NCBI GenBank assembly: GCA_029553475.1
Contig: JAKPKV010000064.1
Coordinates: 1 to 64,000 of the forward strand
Direction: 5' to 3'
DNA from: Armatimonadota bacterium
Lineage (GTDB): Bacteria > Armatimonadota > Hebobacteria > CAIYQO01
Length of the DNA stretch: 64,000 nt
A program made the position numbers and the translations under genes. Below are positions 179-17,420 of the stretch, one piece after another; position 1 is the stretch's first letter; every line of letters starts with the position of its first letter. The notes beneath the pieces were generated by a model, which did no database searches, was not told the origin of the DNA, and saw nothing but the letters and a program-made list of their open reading frames with translations.

Positions 179-382
179 TTCCGAAAATGACACATTTCCG
201 GAAATTAATATACGGCTATGGGCCTCTTTTGTCAAACACTTCGCGCATTTGCTCCCCTCAAACGCCCCCTGCATCGCCCCCGGACAGCAGCCCTCGGGGC
301 AAAATGCCCCCAGGCAGGCGTACCAGCGCGCCGGACGACACATTTTCGCCCGCTGGCTTCCGAGAATGTGTCATTCCTGGAA
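179..382. repeat. Invertible promoter segment, locus 1 (OFF orientation)
   Basis: This 204-bp segment is bounded by inverted 25-bp sites. The left site (179-203) has arms TTCCGAAAA and TTTCCGGAA around spacer TGACACA. The right site (358-382) has arms TTCCGAGAA and TTCCTGGAA around TGTGTCA, the reverse complement of the same spacer. The interior aligns along nearly its whole length with the reverse complement of 12647-12853. The flanks outside the sites (CGTGCC.GCGCGGACGG on the left, G.GGCGT.A.GCC on the right) align in the same direction at both loci. The interior is therefore inverted relative to its surroundings. Its promoter points away from the pseudopilin at 427. Confidence 0.75.
207..235 (-). 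promoter_or_regulatory. Sigma-70 promoter inside the invertible segment, facing left
   Basis: Read on the minus strand: -35 TTGACA (230-235), 17-bp spacer, -10 TATATT (207-212). Transcription would leave through the left recombination site towards position 1, away from the pseudopilin gene. A perfect 12-bp palindrome, ATTTCCGGAAAT (194-205), lies just downstream of the -10 and forms the inner arm of the site. Confidence 0.7.
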
Positions 383-426: not shown

Positions 427-1626
427 ATGTCTCACATGCAGCGCAGGGGAGGCCGTCGCGCGGGCTTCACCCTCATCGAACTCCTGGTGGTGATCGCGAT
501 CATCGCGATTTTGGCCGCCATCCTCTTCCCCGTCTTCGCCAAGGCGCGGGAGAAAGCCCGGCAGAATTCCTGCATCAACAATCAACGGCAAGTCGCCATT
601 GCCATCATGATGCATGTGCAGGATCATGAAGAAACCTTCATGTCCAACACCGCGCCGAATGCCTGGTCGTCGCGGTTGAAGGACTACAACGAGCCGACGA
701 TCTACGACTGTCCGACGAAGACCGGCAAAGGCAACAACGCCGCCCCGGAATACGGCTTCAACTACTACCTCTTCAGCAAAGCCCTCGGCGATATCGAAAC
801 GCCGGTCGCCGCCATCCTCACCGCCGACCTGGACATGAGTGACCCGGACGACACCTACACCATCTCCGACTACGAAACGCAGGTGGACGCGCGCCACACG
901 AAAGGCACGGTGCTGTCGTGCGTGGATGGGCACGTGGTGCAAGTCACGCTGACCAGCGGGGCCAAGCTGAAAGATCTCCTCGACAAAGGGTACGATCTCT
1001 TCTGCGGCGGCGGCACCACCGTCCTGGACGAACCCGCGGAGATCACCGCCGGCACCACCACGACGACCGGTTATACCTGGTACATCGCACCCGACGCCGG
1101 CACGCCCACCGTCTATACGCTGCCGGACAGCGCCTGCTACAAGACCGGCGATACCACCACGCCCAACGTCAGTATCCAGGCGGATATCGCGCAGAACACC
1201 AATTATAACGACCAGACCTGGGAAGCGTTCGGCCTGTACCTGCCCCATCCCCCCACCGATGCCTCCCGCACGAACGGGCTGTATCTGGTGGAAAACGGCT
1301 ACCCGAATTACGGCTTCACCGTGAACCAGAGCCTCCAGGATTTTACCAAGGGCAAGATTCCCTACGCGTTTTCAGAAACCACCAACCAGAAACACTCAAC
1401 GGGCTACTACTTCCGCTTCCAGGTGTATCTCCTGGGCAACACTGCCACCTATTCCGTTGCAGAGTATAGGAACGACAACCTGAGCAAGGTACTCGGCAGC
1501 GGTTCTACCGCCATCAACTGGTCAGCACTGAAAGACCAGAAGAGCACGGTTCCCTTCATCTATATCGCCAACAACCGTGCCATCACCGTCTTCGTCAAGA
1601 ACGTGCTGGTGAAAATACTCAAGTAA
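427..1626 (+). CDS. Type IV pilin-like / pseudopilin protein with H-X9-DG motif (paralogue 1)
   Basis: A 399-residue secreted or surface protein with a class III prepilin leader. A short basic N-terminus ends in RRAG, cleavage is predicted before FTLIELLVV, and a hydrophobic helix of about 20 residues follows. The conserved [12 protein letters not shown] and [17 protein letters not shown] blocks come next. [14 protein letters not shown], in the middle of the protein, matches the H-X9-DG motif of planctomycete and armatimonad pseudopilins. The roughly 210-residue C-terminal extension is not recognised. The ATG at 427 follows GGAAAGGAG; longer upstream starts would run through the invertible segment. 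It closely resembles the protein at 12959 through the first 250 residues. Its promoter segment is currently reversed, so it is probably silent in the sequenced orientation. Confidence 0.9.
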
Positions 1627-7439: not shown

Positions 7440-7756
7440 ACACGTACCCTCCCATCGCAGTGTTCATAATCGGGAAGGGTCCTACCGACGCGGGCATCCA
7501 GATGTTATGGCGAAGACGGTACTCCGCGAGCCTGCCGGCGATGACAGCATGACGTCCGCCTCTGTAAGTTCACGGCGCGCGGCCGCATCACGTTGCCCAA
7601 TCCAATAATGACGCCTTATCATACGCCGATGCCCCCAGAACGTCAAATACTTGGCCCCGTCGCGGCGGGAGCGTAGGCGGCAATCACGGTGACCGGTGAG
7701 CGCAAGATCCCCTCCGTGTCGCCCCATATGCGTCACGCTAGGGTTCGCGTATCCTT

Positions 7757-7833
7757 CGTACTCGTGCTCGTGCTCATCGGAGCGCGGACATCCTGTCCGC
7801 CCGTATTCGAGTACGAGTACGAGCACGAGCACG
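7757..7833. repeat. Hexamer-built hairpin (GAGTAC/GAGCAC) with inner palindrome
   Basis: The left arm is three hexamers (GTACTC GTGCTC GTGCTC) and the right arm four (GAGTAC GAGTAC GAGCAC GAGCAC). They enclose a perfect inner hairpin GCGGACA/TGTCCGC (7784-7800). It lies in the 479-bp gene-free gap 7440-7918. The arms pair only imperfectly because hexamer order differs, so the strand could slip. The rest of the gap shows no gene. Confidence 0.75.
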
Positions 7834-7918
7834 AAACGAGCGCTGACGCCATGATGACGCGTATGCCGTGTCGCCCCCCCATTTGCATCTTCCAACGCCC
7901 TTCGGGTATCGTATCGGT

Positions 7919-10742: not shown

Positions 10743-10874
10743 GGGCGGGCGAGACTCCGTCGAGCCGACTCCGGATGGAAGTGATGGCATGTCGTGTTCG
10801 ATAGAGAGGCTCTCGCATGCGCGCGACGGATTATACTTCCTCCCGGAGTCGGCTCGACGGAGTCTCGCCCGCCC
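10743..10874. repeat. Palindromic dispersed element, copy 1
   Basis: A 132-bp element with perfect 32-bp terminal inverted repeats (10743-10774 and 10843-10874; GGGCGGGCGAGACTCCGTCG at the outer end). The interior contains CATGTCGTGTTCGATAG and GAGAGGCTCTC. It matches the element at 17285-17420. Arm bases differ between copies, but each copy remains a perfect palindrome. No coding potential. Confidence 0.85.
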
Positions 10875-12418: not shown

Positions 12419-12646
12419 GGCAACGTCCGCATCGGGGCCGGCAATGCCGATGGGGAGGTCTCGTCCGCCCGCCAGCCGGATAGCAGGCACTGACCCCGTT
12501 GCGCCGACCCGTGCCGCGTGTCCCGCGGCTGTCAGCGTCACGGTGACGGGTACCGCGGGCCGCCGGGGGCCTGATCGGGAACGCTGGGCGTGCAGGCGGA
12601 CGCCGCGGGTATTCGGTCAACTCCCTCATCGTGCCCGCGCGGACGG

Positions 12647-12853
12647 TTCCGAAAACCGCACATTCTCGGAAGCCAGCGGGCGACACAGTGGCTGATGGGC
12701 GCTCCTCCACGCCTGTATGGGGCGTACCTTTGCACCGCGGGCTGCTGTCCGGCGGCGGTACCGGGGGCGTTTGAGGGGGCAAATGCGTGAAATATTTGAC
12801 AAAGTAGGCGCATGCCGTGTATACTGATTTCCGGAAATGTGCGGTTCCCGGAA
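12647..12853. repeat. Invertible promoter segment, locus 2 (ON orientation)
   Basis: This 207-bp segment is bounded by inverted 25-bp sites. The left site (12647-12671) has arms TTCCGAAAA and TTCTCGGAA around spacer CCGCACA. The right site (12829-12853) has arms TTCCGGAAA and TTCCCGGAA around TGTGCGG, the reverse complement of the spacer. The interior is the reverse complement of the locus 1 interior (179-382), while the outer flanks match locus 1 in the same direction. The internal promoter points rightwards to the pseudopilin at 12959. The rest of the 658-bp gap between lysA and the pseudopilin holds no gene. Confidence 0.75.
12796..12825 (+). promoter_or_regulatory. Sigma-70 promoter driving pseudopilin 2
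   Basis: -35 TTGACA (12796-12801), 18-bp spacer, -10 TATACT (12820-12825). The predicted start, about 12832, falls inside the right recombination site, and the leader is about 127 nt. ATTTCCGGAAAT (12827-12838) and GTTCCCGGAAAC (12844-12855) directly follow the -10, so a bound recombinase or regulator would block transcription. Confidence 0.8.
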
Positions 12854-12958: not shown

Positions 12959-14155
12959 ATGTTCCGTACCCGAGGATTCACCCTCATCGAACTTTTGGTG
13001 GTGATCGCGATCATCGCGATTTTGGCCGCCATCCTCTTCCCGGTGTTTGCAAAGGCGCGCGAGAAGGCGCGCACCAACACCTGCATGAACAATCAGCGGC
13101 AAATCGCCCTCGCCATCCAGATGTACGTGCAGGACCATGAGGAAACCTTCATGCCGGACAGCGGCAACAACGCCTGGTCGTCGCGGCTGCAGGCCTACAA
13201 TGAGCCCACCATCTACGATTGCCCGACGAAGACCGGCAAGGGCAGCAACACCGCGCCCGAATACGGCTTCAATGCCGCGCTTTTCAGCGTGGCGCTGGGT
13301 GACGTGAAGAACCCGACCCTCTGCCCCCTCACGTCGGACGCCGTGGTCAGCGGCGCCACCAGCCCGAATTTCGCCTTCACCGATTTCGACGCCCAGCTTG
13401 ACGCCCGCCACAACAAAGGGCTGAATATCGCCTGCGCGGACGGCCACGTCGCCTACGAGGCGTTCGCCAACACCAATGACTCAAAATTCGGCCTGCTCAT
13501 CGCCCGCGGCTACGACCCCTATGACGGCGTGGCCCCGGTGCTGGAGCAACCGGCGGAACTCAGCCGCGCCCAGATCACCAACCAGTGGGCGAAAGCCGCC
13601 GTCACCTATGATCTCCCCGCCGGCGCCTACTACGATGCCGCCCAGCCGAACCCCGTGCAGCCGAGCTTCGTCGCCGAAGCCGAGCTGAAGTGGTCGGCCA
13701 CCGGCTACGTCGCCGCCGTGCTGGGCGTCTTCCTGCCCGACGGCGCCGCCGTGGTGGCCAACGACGGCTGGTACTTCGGGCCGGTGAGCTACCGCACCCC
13801 GCAGTTCGGCGCCGGGCCGATCTGCGACCACACCACCGGGCCGAACAACGGCAATCCCAGCGCCAGCATCTGCGACCTCTACAATCCGTATGGCTGGACC
13901 GCCGGCGAGACCCCCGTGCCGAACGCCGCCAACGTCTGGTACACTTGCAAAAGTTTCGGCTTCCGCCAGGCGGACGGCAGCTTCAAGATGATGACCACCT
14001 TCTCCGGGAACGGCGGTCTGAAGGTGAAGACCTCCACCCAGCCGGCGGCGACCGTGGCGAACTGGCAAGACCAAAAACAGGTGGCGCTGATGGTCTACTC
14101 CAACACTACCTTCACCGGCTCCATCAGGAACGTGCGGGTGCGCGTGCTGCCGTAG
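12959..14155 (+). CDS. Type IV pilin-like / pseudopilin protein with H-X9-DG motif (paralogue 2)
   Basis: A 398-residue paralogue of the protein at 427. The prepilin leader is very short (MFRTRG), cleaved before [34 protein letters not shown] and [14 protein letters not shown] (H-X9-DG) follow. The last 230 residues differ from paralogue 1 and contain aromatic, Asn/Gly-rich segments of unknown fold. GAAAGGAG lies 8 nt before the ATG. The gene would be exported, processed by prepilin peptidase and assembled or displayed through a type II secretion/type IV pilus-like apparatus encoded elsewhere. It lies downstream of the invertible segment, which is in the expressing orientation. Confidence 0.92.
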
Positions 14156-17284: not shown

Positions 17285-17420
17285 TGGGCGGGCGAGCGTC
17301 CCCGCGAGCCGACTCCGGGAGGAAATGATCATATGTCGTGTGCGATCGAAAGACTCTCTCGTGAGCACGACGGATGAGACTTCCCCCCGGAGTCGGCTCG
17401 CGGGGACGCTCGCCCGCCCA
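17285..17420. repeat. Palindromic dispersed element, copy 2
   Basis: A 136-bp element with perfect 35-bp terminal inverted repeats (17285-17319 and 17386-17420; TGGGCGGGCGAGCGTCCCCG at the outer end). The interior ATATGTCGTGTGCGATCG and the ACGACGGATGAGACTTCC block align with copy 1 at 10743-10874. Just upstream (17252-17279) is a small GCGGAGTACAACTCCGC hairpin related to the element at 46269-46402. Confidence 0.85.

Follow-up and report, generated by a model that had tools for sequence, protein, structure and literature searches.

Many pseudopilin genes of this bacterium are preceded by a family of short segments that are very probably invertible promoters, that is, phase-variation switches, flipped by a tyrosine recombinase. 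The 7-bp centres of their recombination sites would serve as addresses. The likeliest enzyme is a Cre-like recombinase, with the one on contig C43 as the first candidate. The genome has at least 35 such segments in total, 33 of them before pseudopilin genes. Two lie in the window, the stretch of 64,000 nucleotides analysed here (positions 1-64000 of contig C109 in the 194-contig assembly G000). The original prediction concerned these two loci. The scale of the family, the palindromic sites with locus-specific centres and the candidate recombinase go beyond it.

At locus 1, the ends of the segment (179-382) coincide exactly with the outer edges of two 25-bp near-palindromes on the forward strand. 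The left site is at 179-203 (TTCCGAAAATGACACATTTCCGGAA, composed of TTCCGAAAA-TGACACA-TTTCCGGAA) and the right site at 358-382 (TTCCGAGAATGTGTCATTCCTGGAA, composed of TTCCGAGAA-TGTGTCA-TTCCTGGAA). Both have the form TTCCGnnAA-N7-TTnnCGGAA, and the left centre TGACACA is the reverse complement of the right centre TGTGTCA. Between them is an interior of 154 nt (204-357, minus strand) in the OFF state, which aligns to ON interiors only when reversed. It carries a predicted promoter on the minus strand at 207-235, with TTGACA at 230-235, a 17-nt spacer at 213-229 and TATATT at 207-212. This promoter points away from pseudopilin gene 1 (427-1626, plus strand, 399 aa, matches to N_methyl and DUF1559), which has GGAAAGGAGTGT upstream at 409-420. 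We take the N-terminus of the pilin to resemble those of Armatimonadota.

Locus 2 has its sites at 12647-12671 (centre CCGCACA) and 12829-12853 (centre TGTGCGG), both given on the plus strand. Its interior of 157 nt (12672-12828, plus strand), oriented by alignment, is in the ON state. The predicted promoter (12796-12825, plus strand) consists of TTGACA at 12796-12801, 18 nt, and TATACT at 12820-12825. It points into pseudopilin gene 2 (12959-14155, plus strand, 398 aa), which also matches N_methyl and DUF1559.

In the output of a repeat finder, the flank aligns forward and the interior only in reverse (254-303 with 12729-12778, 88%; 339-370 with 12659-12690, 91%), as expected if the gene at 427 is preceded by the same segment with its interior inverted. 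The predicted outward direction of TTGACA-17-TATATT agrees with the minus-strand coordinates. The claim that the flanks are collinear with locus 2 stands for the left side (161-203 with 12629-12671, 86%, forward). On the right side, the similarity of the window pair alone is weak, and collinearity there rests on the family. Flank similarity at chance level would have pointed to independent insertions of a mobile element; the similarity is forward and above chance. The switch appears in both states at two paralogous loci of one assembly, OFF at locus 1 and ON at locus 2, with the inversion itself read from sequence.

We scanned the window for paired palindromic sites of 9+7+9 layout whose 7-nt centres are equal. 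Only these two segments were found, and five shuffles of the window gave zero pairs in the same scan. The third pilin gene of the window (35707, minus strand) is without the element. The window also contains other repeats. A second family of about 136 bp with 40-nt inverted arms (CGAGCCGACTCCGG...) occurs at 17285-17420 and 10743-10874. It has 80 matches in the genome, both strands counted, and looks like a MITE or a stem-loop repeat; one copy adjoins an invertible segment at C95:12403. In addition, 7725-7865 is an imperfect inverted repeat with 51-nt arms and GAGCACGAG-type short repeats.

In the genome, the segment has 45 matches. The site pattern, with up to two mismatches, occurs 81 times, against 3 for a reversed-pattern control. 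The degenerate exact pattern occurs 60 times, against 0. We considered 54 pilin upstream regions. Two sites were present in 28, which entered the analysis. Another 4 are truncated by a contig end and retain a single site; these served for orientation only. The remaining 22 have none. Among these 22, L030_10503 has two weak matches (14/20) that were not counted. With L129, L022 and L130 added to the 28, both sites are present at 31 loci. The choice of site pairs, based on the score of the arms and on spacing, was made once the sequences had already been inspected. For L023 and L047, where three or more sites qualified, we used the pair that was spaced as usual. The 31 loci comprise 29 before pseudopilin genes, one on C51 and one at C126:107368. 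On C51 (L022 682-1890), the segment is OFF and precedes a gene for a secreted protein with NPCBM/FGE-sulfatase domains, beside a sugar-transferase-like gene. At C126:107368, the nearest gene on one side encodes a lipoprotein-like protein without a Pfam match. An exact TTGACA is present in 24 of 29 oriented interiors. The layout is that of an inverton, in which a segment with a promoter lies upstream of a gene and is bounded by inverted repeats.

Both orientations occur at homologous loci of this one genome, with fixed flanks, which also corresponds to an inverton. We use ON and OFF for promoter directions only. The orientation is clear in 32 of the 33 pilin-linked segments, with one orientation far above shuffles and the other not: 14 are ON and 18 OFF. 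The remaining one, L129, with an interior of 328 nt, is weakly OFF; counting it gives 14 ON and 19 OFF. Among the 28 loci (378 pairs), the interior identity is 0.673 for pairs in the same state. Pairs in opposite states have 0.507 forward and 0.681 reversed. The right flank gives 0.641 and 0.633 whatever the state, against 0.49 in the reversed control. The 18-nt left flank is weaker, with a small forward excess (0.568 versus 0.52, 28 loci). Variants of the arms move with the interior: half-sites of the TTCCGAGAA type are found in 11/28 at the far end versus 1/28 at the promoter end, and TTCTG half-sites in 1/28 versus 5/28.

The states are unclustered on either tree and scattered as if random. 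The interior tree (28 rows) requires 10 state changes, against a shuffled mean of 9.3, and at least 5 of them are forced by well-supported (starred) branches. The pilin-gene tree (29 rows) requires 9, against 9.5. L129 was excluded from the interior trees and the pair lists, and C51 from the 28-row interior tree. The sharpest pair is C83:2998-3202, which is ON, and C13:109883-110087, which is OFF. Their oriented interiors are 95.5% identical and their right flanks 100%; their centres differ at 3 of 7 bases. The pilin genes are much more divergent than their switches (67-69% at best for the two window genes). For this reason, the cassettes seem to spread, or to be homogenised, independently of the genes that follow them.

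In 31/31 two-site loci, the left and right 7-bp centres are exact reverse complements of each other. This is what a tyrosine-recombinase site has, inverted arms around an overlap (6-8 bp expected) that is identical in both partners. Of the 930 ordered pairs of different loci, 6 have matching centres, and the maximum over 100,000 shuffles is 8/31. There are 28 distinct centres among the 31 loci. Three of them are each common to two loci, so the addresses are not all unique. Site columns 10-16 agree in 100% of cases within loci versus 40-80% between them. Arm columns 6, 7, 19 and 20 agree less within loci than between loci, which argues that the coupling is confined to the centre and does not come from simple common descent of the two sites. 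In nine pairs with interior identity of at least 0.90, the mean divergence is 7.0% in the interior and 38% in the centre, about five times more. The element copy at C43, described below, was excluded from every centre count. Tyrosine recombinases such as Cre, lambda Int and others exchange strands across an overlap of 6-8 bp, and a mismatch there hinders the exchange. Repeated strand exchange should therefore leave an exact coupling of 7 bp beside arms that are free to vary. The divergence of centres between loci would, in turn, stop recombination from one locus to another.

The genome contains ten tyrosine recombinase (PF00589) genes, on C43, C34, C90, C148, C152, C56, C40, C13, C71 and C159, and four serine recombinases above the cut-off. 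Those on C43, C34 and C90 form one group, with about 50% identity. The nearest solved relative of this trio is Cre (E 7e-28, versus 3e-12 for XerD); for C43 alone, the values are 2e-19 and 1e-7. The candidate has this closest kinship together with the R-K-HxxR-H/W-Y residues of the Cre family, which presumably have catalytic roles. Since Cre uses palindromic arms around a spacer, we counted the kinship in favour of the switch model.

The start of the C43 gene (L126 5056-6257) lies within an element copy of 194 nt (74% identical to C75:344-540, E 5e-34). This copy is decayed, with a poor -10 and centres GCGGATC versus TCGGATC (6/7). Its -35 and -10 positions lie on either side of the start codon. 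It is thus not a working switch and looks like a captured relic. The N-terminus of C43 seems to be built from this decayed copy, a circumstantial tie between the enzyme and the switch system. Among the ten recombinase loci, a copy is present only at C43. Eight have no match, and C90 has one match of 48 nt (E 0.005) more than 3 kb from the gene. No site pairs were found at C34 or C90. Likewise, 27 Cre-like loci from a search of the phylum have no adjoining site pair, except for one weak 6-nt case (L144).

We propose the following mechanism. Two inverted sites lie about 180 bp from each other, and a tyrosine recombinase would bind their palindromic 9-bp arms (TTCCGnnAA / TTnnCGGAA). Strand exchange across the 7-bp centre would flip the interior of about 155 bp, and the promoter would then read into the pseudopilin gene (ON) or away from it (OFF). 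With arms common to the whole family, a single enzyme could act everywhere, most likely one of the three Cre-like recombinases, C43 first. Each locus would retain its own centre on both sides. Because matching centres are favoured in strand exchange, the centre would work like an address: recombination would stay within one locus, and loci would not be rearranged with each other.

Other explanations have to be weighed against this model. Independent insertions, in either direction, of a small MITE-like transposable element that ends in terminal inverted repeats would account for a repeat of about 200 bp with inverted ends dispersed through the genome in 45 matches, and for the few copies before non-pilin genes. 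However, what follows the element at 33 loci is always the same, the ribosome-binding site and leader of a pilin gene. The outer flanks stay with the gene while the interior inverts, where unrelated flanks would be expected. In addition, the coupling within a locus covers the 7-bp centre and not the whole end, and no empty site with a target duplication was found. Independent insertion is hardly credible on these grounds. Inversion by ordinary homologous recombination, or an exchange of promoter cassettes between loci in either orientation, is also very improbable. The interiors resemble each other more closely than the downstream pilin genes do, as if cassettes had spread, and contig ends of different loci have long identical interior stretches in common. 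But an exchange would not keep the two centres of a locus equal and yet unlike those of other loci, and imperfect repeats of 25 bp are short for RecA pathways.

The segments could instead be fixed promoter cassettes. On this view, a regulator binds the palindromes as a pair of operators, and the present orientations arose long ago and have stopped changing. The sites are indeed near-palindromic and adjoin the promoter, and flipping is deduced from the sequence and not directly observed. Nevertheless, binding by a regulator does not explain why the centres vary from locus to locus and still agree within every one of the 31. The states are randomised over both trees, and the C83 and C13 copies with identical right flanks are in opposite states. 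We consider a fixed cassette improbable. The switches may be real and flipped by an Xer-like or other PF00589 recombinase (C148, C152, C56, C40, C13, C71 or C159) instead of the Cre-like trio, which we regard as possible, although rather unlikely. Seven candidates of this kind stand among the ten PF00589 genes, and Xer-type enzymes are described as driving phase-variable systems elsewhere, as in the Vpma system of Mycoplasma agalactiae (PMC11868660). On the other side, C43 is the only recombinase locus with an element copy. C148, which looks like a Xer enzyme, has orthologues in the genomes G002 (92%) and G001 (77%), both without sites. The preferred reading remains a family of invertible promoters flipped by a Cre-like enzyme.

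The ends of contigs may add to this reading. They overlap by exactly 141 or 119 nt, which we take to be k values of the assembler MEGAHIT. The ends of C83 and C2 have a common 141-mer that begins at the edge of the centre; it is preceded by different outer arms in the two contigs, the left in one case and the right in the second. The starts of C23 and C151 show the same arrangement over 119 nt. These pairs could be both orientations of one locus, which is suggestive only, as two loci with one centre would look alike. We did not accept these overlaps as proving that the two orientations coexist: with equal proportions of both, contigs should break off at the centre and not 141 nt past it, and C52 and C96 supply two left flanks for one right flank. 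These two left flanks lead to the right flank on C126 through the same centre TCGAACA (L028 1-420, L053 end, L036 start). It is possibly an exchange between loci of equal centre, or an effect of assembly.

Paired sites were found in 1 of 291 genomes of the phylum, this one only, and among three genomes of the family the site pattern was also found in this one only. G002, of the same genus, and G001, of the same family, have many pilins and no such element in 15 upstream loci each; these regions contain one 18/22 inverted repeat of another sequence (L112). A wider scan of genome contigs gave two hits that were rejected: L064 from Amycolatopsis looks like a run of short repeats, and L065 from Spirochaetaceae has unequal centres. 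The site pattern was not found in viral contigs. Full-text literature searches, judged by title and abstract, gave no account of locus-specific centres or of phase variation in this phylum.

In multi-locus phase variation, a single enzyme must work at many sites and yet not join them together. A simple way to achieve this would be to combine common arms with private centres. We give about even chances to the broader view that this is a natural counterpart of the engineered heterospecific lox sites. In it, a single Cre-like recombinase would flip some 35 promoters independently. The centres would be addresses under diversifying selection, both ends being altered in concert after each duplication. 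The surface expression of pilins would be randomised combinatorially without chromosomal rearrangement. The genome offers 28 natural centres, with paired copies, for probing which differences block cross-talk, and the system would provide orthogonal sites ready for use, along with a Cre-like enzyme. The concerted change of two centres after duplication becomes a testable question, and the large, poorly understood DUF1559 pseudopilin family would be tied to on/off surface variation.

Invertible promoters at many loci under one enzyme are already known, as in the Mpi, RecV and Tsr19/BF2766 systems (PMC3090145, PMC5386303, PMC4747536, PMC5903667). The new part would be the locus-specific crossover codes, set apart from these systems as far as their descriptions go. 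In Bacteroides fragilis, the master enzyme Mpi controls 13 or more dispersed switches, of which seven precede capsule loci (PMC5386303, PMC3090145). The likeness lies in many dispersed switches under one enzyme, here a proposed one. However, Mpi is a serine recombinase (PMC4747536), and its targets are capsules where ours are pseudopilins. Its repeats are described with one common 10-bp core consensus (PMC5386303), whereas here the arms are common and the centre differs at nearly every locus. RecV of Clostridioides difficile is a tyrosine recombinase, as we propose here, and its flagellar switch is a segment of 154 bp with 21-bp imperfect inverted repeats (PMC5386303), similar in size to the interior of locus 1. 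Its switches Cdi1-Cdi7 occupy seven loci, with repeats reported as unrelated except for Cdi2 and Cdi5 (PMC5903667); unlike here, a design of shared arms and private centres does not figure in the passages cited. The invertons of Akkermansia muciniphila have the motif CGGATT..AATCCG, palindromic half-sites around a gap (PMC13343947), and 32 of the 39 invertons in one group belong to the motif family (PMC11892184). They resemble ours in number and half-site layout and differ in the arms, in a comparison by a description that omits centre specificity. Finally, Cre-loxP has palindromic arms around an asymmetric spacer, and our candidate enzyme is Cre-like. Spacer variants of loxP recombine with themselves and far less with the wild type, although Cre in vitro is reported not to depend strictly on identical spacers, a looser requirement (PMC1479339). 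The lox site is 13-8-13, and the conserved site here is 9-7-9. The heterospecific lox variants are engineered, whereas those described here are natural and come with the proposed flipping of promoters.
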